Position numbers and translations under genes: made by a program. Under the pieces are notes generated by a model. That model had not been told where the DNA came from, ran no database searches, and saw only the letters and a program-made list of their open reading frames with translations. From Nocardioides lianchengensis (lineage in GTDB: Bacteria; Actinomycetota; Actinomycetes; Propionibacteriales; Nocardioidaceae): a stretch of DNA of 64,000 nucleotides. How positions within the stretch are numbered: position 1 is the first letter of the stretch; each line of letters begins with the position of its first letter. The stretch is from positions 558,001 through 622,000 of the forward strand of contig NZ_FMZM01000001.1 in NCBI RefSeq assembly GCF_900101465.1. The letters are read 5' to 3'. Below, one piece after another: positions 21,561-43,359 of the stretch.

Positions 21561-21606
21561 GGTGGTCGAGCAGTGAAGGACGTAGTCCTGAGCGCCCGTC
21601 GAGACC
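21561..21606 (+). repeat. REP-like hairpin element (solitary copy)
   Basis: Starts GGTGGTCGAG, ends CGTCGAGACC, with inner hairpin AGGAC-GTA-GTCCT (21577-21589). Same plan as the cluster at 35763-36474 but a different subtype. Confidence 0.6.
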
Positions 21607-33510: not shown

Positions 33511-34425
33511 ATGCAGCTGCGCTACGTCTTCACCGAGCTCGGACAGGGGCTGCGTCGCAACCTGTCCATGCACGTCGCCGTCGTCCTGACCCTGTTCGTC
33601 TCCCTGACCCTGGTCGGTGCCGGCGTGCTGCTGCGCGACCAGGCCGGGCTGGTCGAGGAGAAGTTCGGCAACGAGTTCGAGATCGCCGTGACGCTGTGCC
33701 GCGACAACGACCGGAGCAACCCGGCCTGCGCCGCCGAGGCCGACCAGGCCCAGATCGACGCGATCCAGGAGGTTGTCGACGCCAGCCCCGAGGTCGAGAG
33801 CTCGCGCTTCGAGACCAAGGAGGAGGGCTTCGAGAAGCTGAAGAAGTTCTATGACGCCGACTACCTCGAGGGTCCGAACGCCGCGATCACGGCCGACGAC
33901 ATGCCGCAGCAGATCTGGGTCACCCTGAAGGACCCGCAGCGCTACGAGGGCATCGTCAGCTCGGTGCAGGGCCTGGACGGGGTCGCGGCGATCAACGACC
34001 AGCGCGAGGCCGCCGAGCCGATGTTCGAGACCATCAACACGCTTCGCGACGGCTCGCTCTTGGTCGCGCTGATCCTGGTCGTCGCCGCGCTGCTGCTCGT
34101 CGCCAACACGATCCGCCTGGCCGCCTTCGCGCGGCGCAAGGAGATCGGCATCATGCGTCTGGTGGGCGCCTCCACCATCTACATCACGCTGCCCTTCCTC
34201 CTGGAGGCGCTGGTGATCGCCGCGATCAGTGTGGTCCTGGCCGGGGGAGCGCTCGCGGCCCTGATCCAGTTCGGCATCCAGGGACGACTCGCGGACTCGC
34301 TGGAGTTCATCCCGTGGATCACCTGGTCGGACTCGGTGACCGCCGCGATCGTGGTCGGCGTGACCGGGCCGCTGCTCACGCTGCTCCCGACACTCCTGCT
34401 GACGCGCAAATACATCAAAGTCTGA
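33511..34425 (+). CDS. ftsX: Cell division protein FtsX
   Basis: 304 residues with the FtsX topology: TM1 ~15-42 (LSMHVAVVLTLFVSLTLVGA), a large extracytoplasmic domain (~43-180, two Cys: VTLCRDNDRSNPACAAEA), then three TMs (VALILVVAALLLVANTIRLA; LPFLLEALVIAAISVVLAGG; AIVVGVTGPLLTLLPTLLLT). The external loop transmits FtsE ATP hydrolysis to cell-wall hydrolases. Confidence 0.97.
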   Translation: MQLRYVFTELGQGLRRNLSMHVAVVLTLFVSLTLVGAGVLLRDQAGLVEEKFGNEFEIAVTLCRDNDRSNPACAAEADQAQIDAIQEVVDASPEVESSRFETKEEGFEKLKKFYDADYLEGPNAAITADDMPQQIWVTLKDPQRYEGIVSSVQGLDGVAAINDQREAAEPMFETINTLRDGSLLVALILVVAALLLVANTIRLAAFARRKEIGIMRLVGASTIYITLPFLLEALVIAAISVVLAGGALAALIQFGIQGRLADSLEFIPWITWSDSVTAAIVVGVTGPLLTLLPTLLLTRKYIKV

Positions 34426-34478
34426 TCCGCGCGGGTTACCGTCGCTGCGCCCTCTTCCCCGACCTGAAGGCAGACCCG

Positions 34479-35747
34479 GTGCGCTACTTCCCCAGCGCCT
34501 CGCGCCCCCGCCTGTCCGCGGCCGTCTTGGCCTGCGCACTCGCCATCGGCGCGATGGCCGTCCCTCTGGCCCAGGCCGCCGACGACGACCTGAAGGGCAA
34601 GCAGGACAAGGTCGAGCAGCAGATCGAGCACGCCCACGACGACCTCGAGCACTCCAGCAAGGAGGTCCGGCGGGCCACCGCCCGGCTGGAGGCCGCCCAG
34701 GCCAAGCTGGACGCCGCCGAGGACGCGTACGCCGTCGCCCGCGCCAAGCTGACCGCGGCCCAGGCCCGCGACACCGAGCTGCGGACCAAGCTCGCCGCCG
34801 CCGAGCAGCGGCTGACCGAGGCCCGCGCCGACCTGACCGCGGGGGAGCAGGCGGTCAAGGACCAGCGCGCCCGGTTCGTCGATCGCGTGACCGGCCTCTA
34901 CGTCAAGGGCGACCCGCGGCTGCTGGGGCTGTCCTCCATCCTGGCGGCGAACGATCCCAACGACCTGCTGCGCCGTGTCCAGGCCAACGACACCGTCATC
35001 GCCAAGGAGGACGCGGCGTACGACGAGCTGCGCAGCATCGAGGTGCTGCTCCGGGTGCGGGAGACCCAGGTCGAGGACGCCCAGCAGGCTGTTGCCGAGC
35101 AGCAGGCCGCCGCCGCCGCGCACGTCGAGACCATGGAGACCCTCACCGCGGGGGCCGCCACGGCCAAGGAGCAGGTCGCCGGGCTGTTCGCCGACGCCCG
35201 GGCCGCCCGCCGTGAGGCCGGGGCCGCCCAGGAGCGTGACCGCCTGGTGCTGCGCCAGCTGAAGAAGCGCGAGGCCAGGATCAAGCAGCAGATCCTCGCG
35301 GCCGCCCGCCGGGCCGCCCGCCGCGGCGGCGGCTACACCGGGGAGAGCGACGGCTTCCTCAGCTCGCCGGTCAAGGGCGCGCGGGTGACCTCGCCGTTCG
35401 GCTACCGCGAGCACCCGATCTACCACTACTGGGGCCTGCACGACGGCACCGACTTCGGCGCCGGCTGCGGCACCCCCCTGCGCGCGGTCGCCGACGGCAC
35501 CGTGATGCAGGCGTACTGGTCCTCGGTCTACGGCAACCGCCTCTACGTCAACGTCGGCCGGGCCAACGGCAAGTTCCTGACCGCCGTCTACAACCACGCC
35601 ACCCGCTACACCGTCGGCCCCGGCGAGCGCGTCCGCCGCGGCGAGGTCATCGGGTACGTCGGCTCCACCGGCTGGTCCACCGGCTGCCACCTGCACTTCA
35701 CGGTGCTGGCCAACGGCGACCCGGTGAATCCCATGGACTGGATCTAG
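34479..35747 (+). CDS. EnvC/Rip-like coiled-coil M23 peptidase, FtsEX partner
   Basis: 422 residues from GTG 34479 (GAAGG upstream). Signal peptide (AVLACALAIGAMAVPLAQAA); two long coiled coils ~38-275 (DKVEQQIEHAHDDLEHSSKE; RVRETQVEDAQQAVAEQQAA); LytM/M23 domain ~298-420 with zinc ligands in GLHDGTDFG (~320) and CHLHF (~403-407), which look catalytically complete. The position after ftsEX and the coiled coil match EnvC-type hydrolase activators. smpB, often next in Actinobacteria, is not here. Confidence 0.9.
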   Translation: MRYFPSASRPRLSAAVLACALAIGAMAVPLAQAADDDLKGKQDKVEQQIEHAHDDLEHSSKEVRRATARLEAAQAKLDAAEDAYAVARAKLTAAQARDTELRTKLAAAEQRLTEARADLTAGEQAVKDQRARFVDRVTGLYVKGDPRLLGLSSILAANDPNDLLRRVQANDTVIAKEDAAYDELRSIEVLLRVRETQVEDAQQAVAEQQAAAAAHVETMETLTAGAATAKEQVAGLFADARAARREAGAAQERDRLVLRQLKKREARIKQQILAAARRAARRGGGYTGESDGFLSSPVKGARVTSPFGYREHPIYHYWGLHDGTDFGAGCGTPLRAVADGTVMQAYWSSVYGNRLYVNVGRANGKFLTAVYNHATRYTVGPGERVRRGEVIGYVGSTGWSTGCHLHFTVLANGDPVNPMDWI

Positions 35748-35762
35748 CCCACCGCCCGTCCC

Positions 35763-35800
35763 GGTGGTTGAGGAGGTTGCGCAGCAACCGTCTCGAAACC
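35763..35800 (+). repeat. REP-like repeat A1
   Basis: 38 bp: begins GGTGGTTGAGGAGG, ends CCGTCTCGAAACC, inner hairpin GGTTGC-GCA-GCAACC. Identical to A2 and A3. Confidence 0.9.
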
Positions 35801-35837
35801 GGGTGGGCCGTAGTTCGGGCCTGGATCGGGGTGGGCT

Positions 35838-35932
35838 GCGGGGGTTTCGGGACGGGACTTCGTCCCTCCTCAACCTCCGGTGGTGGGCGTGCTCGGTGGT
35901 TGAGGAGGTTGCGCAGCAACCGTCTCGAAACC
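35838..35932 (+). repeat. 95-bp direct repeat, left copy (REP B1 + A2)
   Basis: Contains inverted unit B1 (35843-35880, inner hairpin GGGAC-TTC-GTCCC), a 14-nt spacer and unit A2 (35895-35932). It matches 36292-36386 with one mismatch. The two copies flank the body of the GIY-YIG gene, and this copy supplies the gene's 3' end. Confidence 0.95.
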
Positions 35933-36232
35933 CCGACCGTTCCGGTGTCGCCAGGCCCGTGAAGCCAGCGCTGGCAGGTCGTCCAAGCGTCCTTCGATGA
36001 GGGCAAGACGTTTGGCCCGGCCCCAGCCCTGCACGCGCTTCTCGTACGCGAAAGCACCGTCGATCCGGGCGAACTCCGCCGCCCACAGCAGCCGCACCGG
36101 CCGTCGACCTGGGCGGCGGGTGTAGGCCGCCCCCTCGCCGTTCTGGTGCTCGGCGAGGCGACGGTCGAGGTCGACCGTGCTGCCGACGTAGAACGATCGG
36201 TCCGCGCATTCCACCAGGTAGGTCCAAGGCAT
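35870..36232 (-). CDS. GIY-YIG nuclease inside a REP cluster
   Basis: 120 residues. GIY-YIG motif near the N-terminus (YLVECADRSFYVGSTVDL, with YLV and YVG), then LAEHQNGEGAAYTRRPGRR, the catalytic Glu region AYEKRVQGWGRAKR (~65-78) and LIEGRLDDLPALASRAW. This is the UPF0213/YhbQ-like group. The last ~21 residues (GFETVAAQPPQPPSTPTTGG) and the stop codon are read from repeats A2 and B1, so the native domain ends at ~RAWRHRNG. It sits between 95-bp direct repeats and may be linked to REP spread. Confidence 0.8.
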   Translation of the reverse strand: MPWTYLVECADRSFYVGSTVDLDRRLAEHQNGEGAAYTRRPGRRPVRLLWAAEFARIDGAFAYEKRVQGWGRAKRLALIEGRLDDLPALASRAWRHRNGRGFETVAAQPPQPPSTPTTGG

Positions 36233-36291
36233 GGACCGAGGATGTCGCTCTTACGAGCCTGTTGCTCGGACTGCCGGCCGACCTGTGGAGA

Positions 36292-36386
36292 GCGGGGGTT
36301 TCGAGACGGGACTTCGTCCCTCCTCAACCTCCGGTGGTGGGCGTGCTCGGTGGTTGAGGAGGTTGCGCAGCAACCGTCTCGAAACC
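36292..36386 (+). repeat. 95-bp direct repeat, right copy (REP B2 + A3)
   Basis: B2 at 36297-36334 and A3 at 36349-36386; one mismatch to the left copy at 35838-35932. Confidence 0.95.
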
Positions 36387-36436
36387 GGGTGGGCCGTAGG
36401 TCGGGCCTGGGTGGGGGTGGGTGCGCGGGTTGCGGG

Positions 36437-36474
36437 GGTGTCGGGACGGGACTTCGTCCCTCCTCAACCACCGG
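36437..36474 (-). repeat. REP-like repeat B3
   Basis: Inverted-orientation unit ending CCTCAACCACCGG, inner hairpin GGGAC-TTC-GTCCC. Reverse-complemented, it has the same outer arms as the A units. Confidence 0.9.
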
Positions 36475-36505
36475 TGCCGACCGGCGCAGGACGTGGGGCG
36501 GTCTC

Positions 36506-36511
36506 TAGGGT
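36506..36511 (+). promoter_or_regulatory. -10 hexamer TAGGGT of the galactofuranan operon
   Basis: 7 nt before GTG 36519; no Shine-Dalgarno. Confidence 0.5.
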
Positions 36512-36518
36512 GGTCGGC

Positions 36519-37442
36519 GTGACCGAGCCGAGCAGCGAGACGCGACGTGTCGTGGCGGTGGTGGTCACGTTCAACCGGCTGACCCTCCTGGAGGGGCTGC
36601 TGGAGCGGCTGACGGGGATCGACGGGCTGGCCGAGGTGCTGGTCGTCGACAACGCCTCGACCGACGGCACCGGCGCCTGGCTCGCGTCGTACGACGACCC
36701 GCGCGTGCAGGCCCGCACGCTCCCCGAGAACCGCGGCGGAGCCGGCGGCTTCCACCACGGCCTGGCCTGGGCGGTGGAGCGCGGGGCGGACCTGGCCTGG
36801 CTGATGGACGACGACGGGCTCCCCGACGAGGACTGCCTGGCCACCCTCCTGCGTGAGACCGACCTGGACTTCTGGGGCCCGGTCGTCGTCGACCAGGACG
36901 ATCCCGAGCGGCTGGTCTTCCCGATCCGGCTGCCCGGGTCGACGAGCGTCGCGCACCGGGTGCCGGACGTGGAGCGGGCGGCTCGCGGCGGCCGGCTCGA
37001 CGGCATCGTCATCCCGTTCAACGGCGTCCTGGTGACCCGCGAGCTGGTCGAGCGGATCGGCCTCCCGCGCGAGGAGTTCTTCATCTGGGGCGACGACCAC
37101 GAGTACCGCCTGCGCGCCGAGGCCGCCCACGCGCGGATCGCCACGGTCCCCGCGGCGCGGGTCCGGCACCCGAGCGTGGGGGAGCTCGGCACGCCGATGG
37201 CGTTCGGGCGGACGACGTACAACCACAGCCCGAGCGACCTCAAGCACTACTGCATGGCCCGCAACAACCTGGTCAACCTGCGCACCTACCGCGGCTGGCC
37301 GCACGCGCTGGCGTTCGTCGCCAAGACGCTGTGGTTCTACACCTTCACCCGCCCCAGCCCGGCCCGGATCGCCCTCAGCGCCCAAGGCATGTACGCCGGC
37401 CTCCGCGGTGACTTCACCGGCCACGGGAAGTACCTGCGATGA
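36519..37442 (+). CDS. GT2 glycosyltransferase, GlfT1-like
   Basis: 307 residues. GT-A fold start (VVAVVVTFNRLTLLEGLLER), VVDNASTDGTGAWLA, NRGGAGGFHHGL, acidic metal site LMDDDGLPDED (~92-102) and acceptor motif FFIWGDDHEYRLRAEAA. The NxGGAGGF and W-GDD/E-EYR motifs are typical of galactofuranosyl and rhamnosyl transferases that prime galactan. First gene of a tight operon with glf and a GlfT2-like enzyme, so a role in galactofuranan initiation is inferred. Leaderless start. Confidence 0.8.
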   Translation: MTEPSSETRRVVAVVVTFNRLTLLEGLLERLTGIDGLAEVLVVDNASTDGTGAWLASYDDPRVQARTLPENRGGAGGFHHGLAWAVERGADLAWLMDDDGLPDEDCLATLLRETDLDFWGPVVVDQDDPERLVFPIRLPGSTSVAHRVPDVERAARGGRLDGIVIPFNGVLVTRELVERIGLPREEFFIWGDDHEYRLRAEAAHARIATVPAARVRHPSVGELGTPMAFGRTTYNHSPSDLKHYCMARNNLVNLRTYRGWPHALAFVAKTLWFYTFTRPSPARIALSAQGMYAGLRGDFTGHGKYLR

Positions 37443-43306: not shown

Positions 43307-43359
43307 GGTCGAGTAGCCCCGCGACCGACGAAGGAGGTCGCGACGGGCGTATCGAGACC
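43307..43359 (+). repeat. REP-like hairpin element (solitary copy)
   Basis: Starts GGTCGAGTAG, ends CGTATCGAGACC, inner stem GCGACC/GGTCGC (43321-43326, 43336-43341). Same outer plan as 21561-21606 and the 35763-36474 cluster. Confidence 0.55.

Follow-up and report, generated by a model that had tools for sequence, protein, structure and literature searches.

Small GIY-YIG nuclease genes accompanied by their own REP-like hairpin units: a locus of Nocardioides lianchengensis and its counterparts in several bacterial phyla

The locus and the architecture of its units

Within the window, that is, the whole analysed stretch of 64,000 nucleotides, a short GIY-YIG nuclease gene has an M23-type peptidase gene on its left and a glycosyltransferase gene on its right and is surrounded by six REP-like units of alternating orientation in the order A, B, A, gene, B, A, B (Table 1). 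In a profile search the 120-residue product matched PF01541 with 58.7 bits against a curated cut-off of 22.6 (E=7e-16), and it keeps all the catalytic residues (Y5, Y15, R25, H29 and E64); with its catalytic tyrosine, arginine and glutamate in place, it belongs to the GIY-YIG superfamily. It is also UPF0213-like, being a single-domain protein in the range of about 80-120 residues whose nearest solved structures are the UPF0213 proteins 1zg2 (E=2e-12) and 1ywl. In an alignment of 121 homologous proteins Y15 and R25 are present in all 121 and E64 in 119, and this near-invariance argues that the nuclease activity of the small GIY-YIG subfamily is probably under selection.

GIY-YIG is the sole domain matched in this protein: a Y1 (HUH) transposase domain was not found, and the intron-endonuclease model scored far under its cut-off (17 vs 56 bits). 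The gene is intergenic, lies in neither an intron nor an intein and interrupts no target gene, and searches against PHROGs and PADLOC returned no match. An Rfam search of the locus gave sub-threshold matches only, among them Ms_AS-4 on the reverse strand within the GIY-YIG gene (36112-36193; 25.5 vs 50 bits); the mycobacterial Ms_AS-4 RNA may perhaps be located at a related gene.

The two unit types have the outer parts GGTTGAGGAG and GTCTCGAAACC in common and differ in their inner hairpins. Up to two mismatches being allowed, GGTGGTTGAGGAGG occurs nine times in the window as against 0.7 times in shuffles. The last 20 or so codons of the GIY-YIG gene (..GFETVAAQPPQPPSTPTTGG; 35870-35932) lie within the flanking units. 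An earlier note on this DNA had described three A and three B units in opposite orientation, direct repeats of 95 bp with a single mismatch on either side of the gene, and a GIY-YIG gene inside the array, all of which were located at the coordinates of Table 1. Elsewhere in the window, two further families are each represented by a single unit, GGTCGAGCAGTGAAGG..GTCGAGACC at 21564-21606 and GGTCGAGTAGCC..GTATCGAGACC at 43307-43359.

Table 1. Genes, REP-like units and direct repeats at the GIY-YIG locus (window coordinates)
Feature	Position	Strand	Remarks
M23-type peptidase ORF, left neighbour	34314..35747	+	then smpB in 20/20 relatives tested
Type A unit 1, GGTTGAGGAGGTTGCGCAGCAACCGTCTCGAAACC	35766..35800	+	fold-back pattern
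95-bp direct repeat, left copy	35838..35932	+	1 mismatch/95 vs right copy
Type B unit 1, GGTTGAGGAGGGACGAAGTCCCGTCCCGAAACC	35843..35875	-	C replaces T directly before CGA (free bulge position)
GIY-YIG nuclease gene, 120 aa, UPF0213-like	35870..36232	-	PF01541 match
Type A unit 2	35898..35932	+	fold-back pattern; overlaps the gene's 3' end
95-bp direct repeat, right copy	36292..36386	+	1 mismatch/95 vs left copy
Type B unit 2, GGTTGAGGAGGGACGAAGTCCCGTCTCGAAACC	36297..36329	-	fold-back pattern
Type A unit 3	36352..36386	+	fold-back pattern
Type B unit 3	36437..36469	-	fold-back pattern; 3' part degenerate
Glycosyltransferase gene, right neighbour	36519..37442 (start approximate)	+	after LCP gene in 7/9 relatives

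The architecture of the units was examined by an unbiased enumeration of every 3+3 core around 80 loci, in which 2727 cores were ranked. GAG/CGA came first, being present at 74 of the 80 loci and matching 328 times in 55 kb near the genes versus 74 times in 296 kb far from them. The second-ranked core is its reverse complement, and each single-base change of the core is found at only 0-10 loci. The pair flanking the core is C-G or T-A in 326 of the 328 matches (C-G 206, T-A 120, G-C 2), and the base preceding CGA varies freely (T 245, A 43, C 22, G 18). The generic unit is 5'-N3Y-GAG-n..n'-b-CGA-RN3-3', with 4-nt complementary arms, GAG, CGA and one n-n' pair. Its outer Y/R pair is Watson-Crick in 238/244 units and its n-n' pair in 235/244, and both covary.

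A simple GA-TC pairing with two bulges was rejected and tandem G.A pairs are preferred, since any base is accepted ahead of CGA but GAG, CGA and their Py/Pu neighbours are constrained. In such a fold 5'-Py-GA-Pu-3' would stand opposite 5'-Py-GA-Pu-3' in tandem sheared G.A pairs, beside a G-C pair and a single bulged base; since the duplex is an imperfect palindrome, this layout would require a single strand that has folded on itself. Computed DNA folding of individual units gave, for most variants, a modest gain over shuffles (z -0.6 to -3.0) under an energy model that gives tandem sheared G.A pairs no special bonus.

Association of units with small GIY-YIG genes

The draft genome of N. lianchengensis (5.29 Mb, 25 contigs) was examined by pattern and profile searches. 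It encodes seven GIY-YIG proteins, of which five are small, one is UvrC and one is DnaQ-UvrC-like. All five small genes have fold-back units on either side, and the unit variant is specific to each gene: GGTTGAG-GAG..GTC-TCGAAACC for the window gene, and for the paralogues GGTTGAG-CAG..GTG-TCGAAACC (L001), GGTCGAG-CAG..TTG-TCGAGACC (L002), GGTTGAG-GTG..GCC-TCGAAACC (L003) and GGTCGAG-TAG..GTA-TCGAGACC (L004). No units flank the two large genes. Genome-wide, the pattern GGTYGAGN{12,42}TCGARACC has 366 matches as against 3 for the reversed control pattern, and many of the intergenic units lie away from any small GIY-YIG gene. As imperfect palindromes of high copy number in alternating clusters, the units are REP/BIME-like. 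The L003 paralogue, like the window gene, ends inside a unit.

The same association was followed in 80 named relatives, mostly Actinomycetota, with single representatives of Bacteroidota, Ignavibacteria and Chloroflexota and one Rickettsiales MAG. Exact units reach a density of 4.5/kb in the 250 bp next to the gene and fall to about 0.1/kb at distances above 500 bp, the level of unrelated control loci (0.11/kb). Loci without an exact unit mostly have variants such as TCACGAGACC, CGTCGAG..TCGAGACG or GACTGAG..CGAAGTC, and the generic unit is found within 500 bp of 77 of the 80 genes, on both sides in 69, compared with 3-10 of 80 for four control cores. Minimal units that lack the inner hairpin (GGTCGAGCTTGTCGAGACC, CATCGAGCTTGTCGAGATG) were seen at L079, L096, L097, L215 and L216, in Cryobacterium, Arthrobacter and some Nocardioides.

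Similarly, in a replication with 240 genomes of Alphaproteobacteria (the class of locus L129), 61 of which have a homologue, GAG/CGA units were present at 21/24 loci scoring at least 72 bits, whose genes are of the same subfamily, and at 0/5 weaker ones. Here the arms differ (TCCT/AGGA, CCCT/AGGG, TGGT/ACCA, TGCT/AGCA); the top core is again GAG/CGA, found at 18 of 29 loci near the genes and at 2 far from them, whereas the best core not derived from GAG/CGA units reaches 9 near and 9 far. A Methylobacterium copy and a copy on a Sphingomonas megaplasmid both have units. No units were found at Bacillus yazA, at the Vibrio and Cupriavidus copies or at the two phage GIY-YIG copies examined, and an Aerococcus copy has a single isolated generic match downstream. 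The link between GIY-YIG gene and unit is general across several phyla. It agrees with the earlier note, which had tied a GIY-YIG enzyme to REP-like repeats and proposed looking for genome-wide clustering at UPF0213-type genes. GIY-YIG copies without flanking repeats, which that note had named as contrary evidence, do exist and belong mostly to other subfamilies (UvrC, DnaQ-UvrC, YazA, YhbQ-like).

Unit type also follows the protein tree. The tree comprises 121 proteins, 117 of them with a unit label, and is poorly resolved over its 96 columns; the effect is nevertheless large, the n tag changing 22 times along the tree compared with 53 +/- 3 times in shuffles (minimum 45). Protein pairs at least 80% identical have the same n tag in 92% of cases, versus 34% of pairs overall.

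Unit numbers are about tenfold higher in genomes that possess the gene than in those that lack it (median 84 vs 8.5; p=2e-16, inflated by relatedness), and for the own family alone the numbers are 97 and 17 (p=4e-9, likewise inflated). Four genomes of one genus (G061, G105, G194 and G202) have 116-245 units, large GIY-YIG proteins only and no small gene, which shows that a resident enzyme is not needed for units to persist or to arise. These genomes may have lost the gene and kept the units, yet they also call for caution.

Array turnover, proposed mechanism and alternatives

Comparison of related genomes gives a view of how the arrays change. In genome G040 one variant accounts for 261 units, which form dispersed, alternating arrays whose spacers are fixed, a BIME-like arrangement. 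At 12 sites orthologous between G040 and G122 the unit numbers are 11/0, 4/1, 16/2, 4/3, 15/4, 24/8, 19/2, 16/2, 7/4, 2/2, 10/2 and 1/1, and from these unequal numbers it follows that arrays expand and contract fast. At the site with 11 versus 0 units, the other genome has unrelated DNA. A clean pair of empty and filled sites or a target duplication was not found in the comparisons G011/G015, G040/G122 and G081/G096; the stretches compared in the first pair contain too few dispersed units for empty-site detection, and the candidate site in the last is not a clean insertion.

The arrays also coincide with a rearrangement. In relatives the M23-type gene is followed by smpB (20/20) and the LCP gene by the glycosyltransferase gene (7/9). 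N. lianchengensis has the order M23-[GIY-YIG array]-glycosyltransferase (window 35750-36520), and 134 kb away lies the reciprocal counterpart of this junction, LCP-[two GTG-type units]-smpB (L388 1200-1500; C22:459.7k). Both new junctions are inside unit arrays, the two arrays being of different unit families in this draft assembly. Unless that assembly is wrong at the two junctions, the GIY-YIG locus is a synteny breakpoint and rearrangement junction.

These observations are probably best explained by a structure-specific single-strand nuclease that has its own dispersed hairpin targets. The computed features on which this explanation builds are these: units cluster at their cognate genes, the core is conserved while arms and n-n' pair covary, unit type and protein diverge together, unit counts are associated with the gene genome-wide, arrays turn over, and one array sits at a rearrangement junction. 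Folding of the units in vivo, their binding and cleavage by the enzyme and any advantage for the host are steps that we infer. A unit made single-stranded, be it on the lagging-strand template, in incoming or displaced strands or in an extruded cruciform, would fold back on itself. The outer arms N3Y/RN3 would pair, GA opposite GA would form the tandem sheared G.A pairs, and a G-C pair, one bulged base (usually T) and the n-n' pair opening the variable inner stem would follow. The enzyme may recognise the GAG/CGA core, with arms, n-n' pair and inner stem defining the unit family specific to each paralogue, and would then nick the strand in its folded form. Rounds of nicking and repair, or else recombination from one unit to another, could let arrays grow and shrink and turn them into rearrangement points.

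An alternative is mobilisation in the manner of RAYTs, whose non-autonomous mobile elements are the REPINs: the nuclease would copy or move the units as non-autonomous elements, the gene with its flanking units being the autonomous copy. The hundreds of dispersed units, their gene-specific variants, the association with genome counts, the BIME-like alternating arrays with fixed spacers and the strong shifts in copy number at the 12 orthologous sites (for example 11/0, 24/8, 19/2, 16/2) speak for such a process. However, the genome pairs compared offer neither a clean empty/filled pair nor a target duplication, replication slippage or recombination could equally expand the arrays, and GIY-YIG enzymes are cutters; we know of no strand transfer by them. 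We regard mobilisation as possible but doubtful, so that of the earlier note's interpretation the link between GIY-YIG gene and REP-like repeats stands, while the word "REP-mobilising" goes beyond changes in array size between relatives. In its boldest form the idea would make class I (GAG/CGA) GIY-YIG enzymes a second, RAYT-independent spreader of REP-like elements, which copies its own unit family by nicking folded (PyGAPu)2 hairpins and would explain the abundant palindromes of Alphaproteobacteria and Actinobacteria; this we offer as a tentative conjecture.

The enzyme might instead control incoming or recombining DNA, cutting single strands that carry units and thereby limiting or bounding transformation or recombination, with the units kept as marks of segments. 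Here the behaviour of a Neisseria system is suggestive. Ssn, reportedly the subject of a 2025 article in Nature Communications, is said to be a GIY-YIG single-strand nuclease with NTS repeats in hundreds of copies, to affect natural transformation and to have many homologues, each with its own targets. The NTS-type target is GA-TTCCC..GGGAA-T-GA. A sister subfamily of Alphaproteobacteria (class II; L353 and L358-L387), with up to 10 gene copies per genome, has NTS-like units (GA-stem..stem-N-GA) near 22/30 of its genes, compared with 6-12/30 for control cores, with 52 matches near the genes. The flanking repeats of these genes are NTS/dRS3-like (GGATTCCCGCC..GCGGGAATGAC), and class I units occur at 2/30 class II loci. 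From the NTS-like units around the L353-type genes it follows that the window gene represents a sister class with a related yet distinct target. The dRS3 element is ATTCCC(N8)GGGAAT with about 700 copies, its Nf1 type being ATTCCCRCCTRCGCGGRAAK, and recombination is known to take place at dRS3 arrays (PMC3898611), which also favours a role in DNA control. One class II gene, L380, is flanked by CTGGATTCCCGCCTGCGCGGGAATGACAC (1390-1480), the dRS3/Nf1 pattern. Against such a role, five paralogues with distinct units in one genome resemble selfish lineages more than one shared marker system, and on balance we consider it unlikely.

Hitch-hiking, in which the gene was inserted by accident into terminator- or REP-rich intergenic DNA and is functionally unrelated to the units, could draw on the four unit-rich genomes without a small GIY-YIG gene and on the many intergenic unit sites without the gene. 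It is largely contradicted by the paralogue-specific variants, by the way in which unit type tracks the protein tree, by the absence of units from control genes and other GIY-YIG genes and by the recurrence of the association in other phyla with different arms, and seems very improbable. Chance or an assembly artefact, conceivable for a draft of 25 contigs, is already refuted as the source of the association by the 366 versus 3 units genome-wide and by the repetition of the pattern in many independent genomes.

A nuclease with its own dispersed hairpin targets would matter beyond this locus. Palindromes of the kinds GGTYGAG..TCGARACC, TCCTGAGGAG..CGTCTCGAAGGA or CTGAGCTTGTCGAAG abound in bacterial genomes, and to our knowledge none of these kinds has a named owner. 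Once they are tied to a single cognate nuclease subfamily, for which a recognition structure is predicted and natural enzyme-target pairs exist by the dozen, the origin of these palindromes becomes directly testable. The natural pairs differ in specificity and form a set of candidate sequence-specific single-strand nucleases. The window locus suggests, in addition, that unit arrays shape chromosome rearrangement.

Comparison with known systems

Within the limited literature searched we found no paper on a link between GIY-YIG enzymes and REPs or on repeats at UPF0213 genes. The earlier note's statement that such a link is not described is nonetheless doubtful in view of the Ssn/NTS system. As in that system, a small stand-alone GIY-YIG enzyme is accompanied by hundreds of dispersed intergenic hairpin repeats, and the repeats resemble NTS in the fold-back layout GA ... 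1-nt bulge ... GA. Of the features that define an Ssn nuclease, the window locus shares the combination of a small GIY-YIG gene and a matching repeat dispersed over the genome; site-specific cleavage confined to single-stranded DNA would be predicted for its enzyme. The units themselves fall outside the NTS type, having a GAG/CGA core and Watson-Crick outer arms, and unlike Ssn/NTS, five paralogue-unit pairs exist side by side in one genome.

With GIY-YIG homing endonucleases the window gene shares the catalytic domain and possibly a selfish character, but it resides in no intron or intein and interrupts no conserved target. In domain and size it is identical in kind to the UPF0213, YhbQ and YazA proteins, whose housekeeping-like copies (Bacillus yazA beside rsmI; Vibrio, Aerococcus) differ from it in having no matching unit pair.

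The closest parallel in organisation is with RAYT (TnpA-REP), REPIN and BIME systems, where extragenic palindromes likewise occur in hundreds and in alternating arrays, the cognate gene is flanked by its own repeat variant, and gene and repeat diverge together. Unlike in RAYTs, the enzyme is a GIY-YIG protein and not a Y1/HUH transposase, and the unit core is GAG/CGA. The likeness is best read as one of organisation, an analogy that does not make the system a member of the RAYT/REP family.
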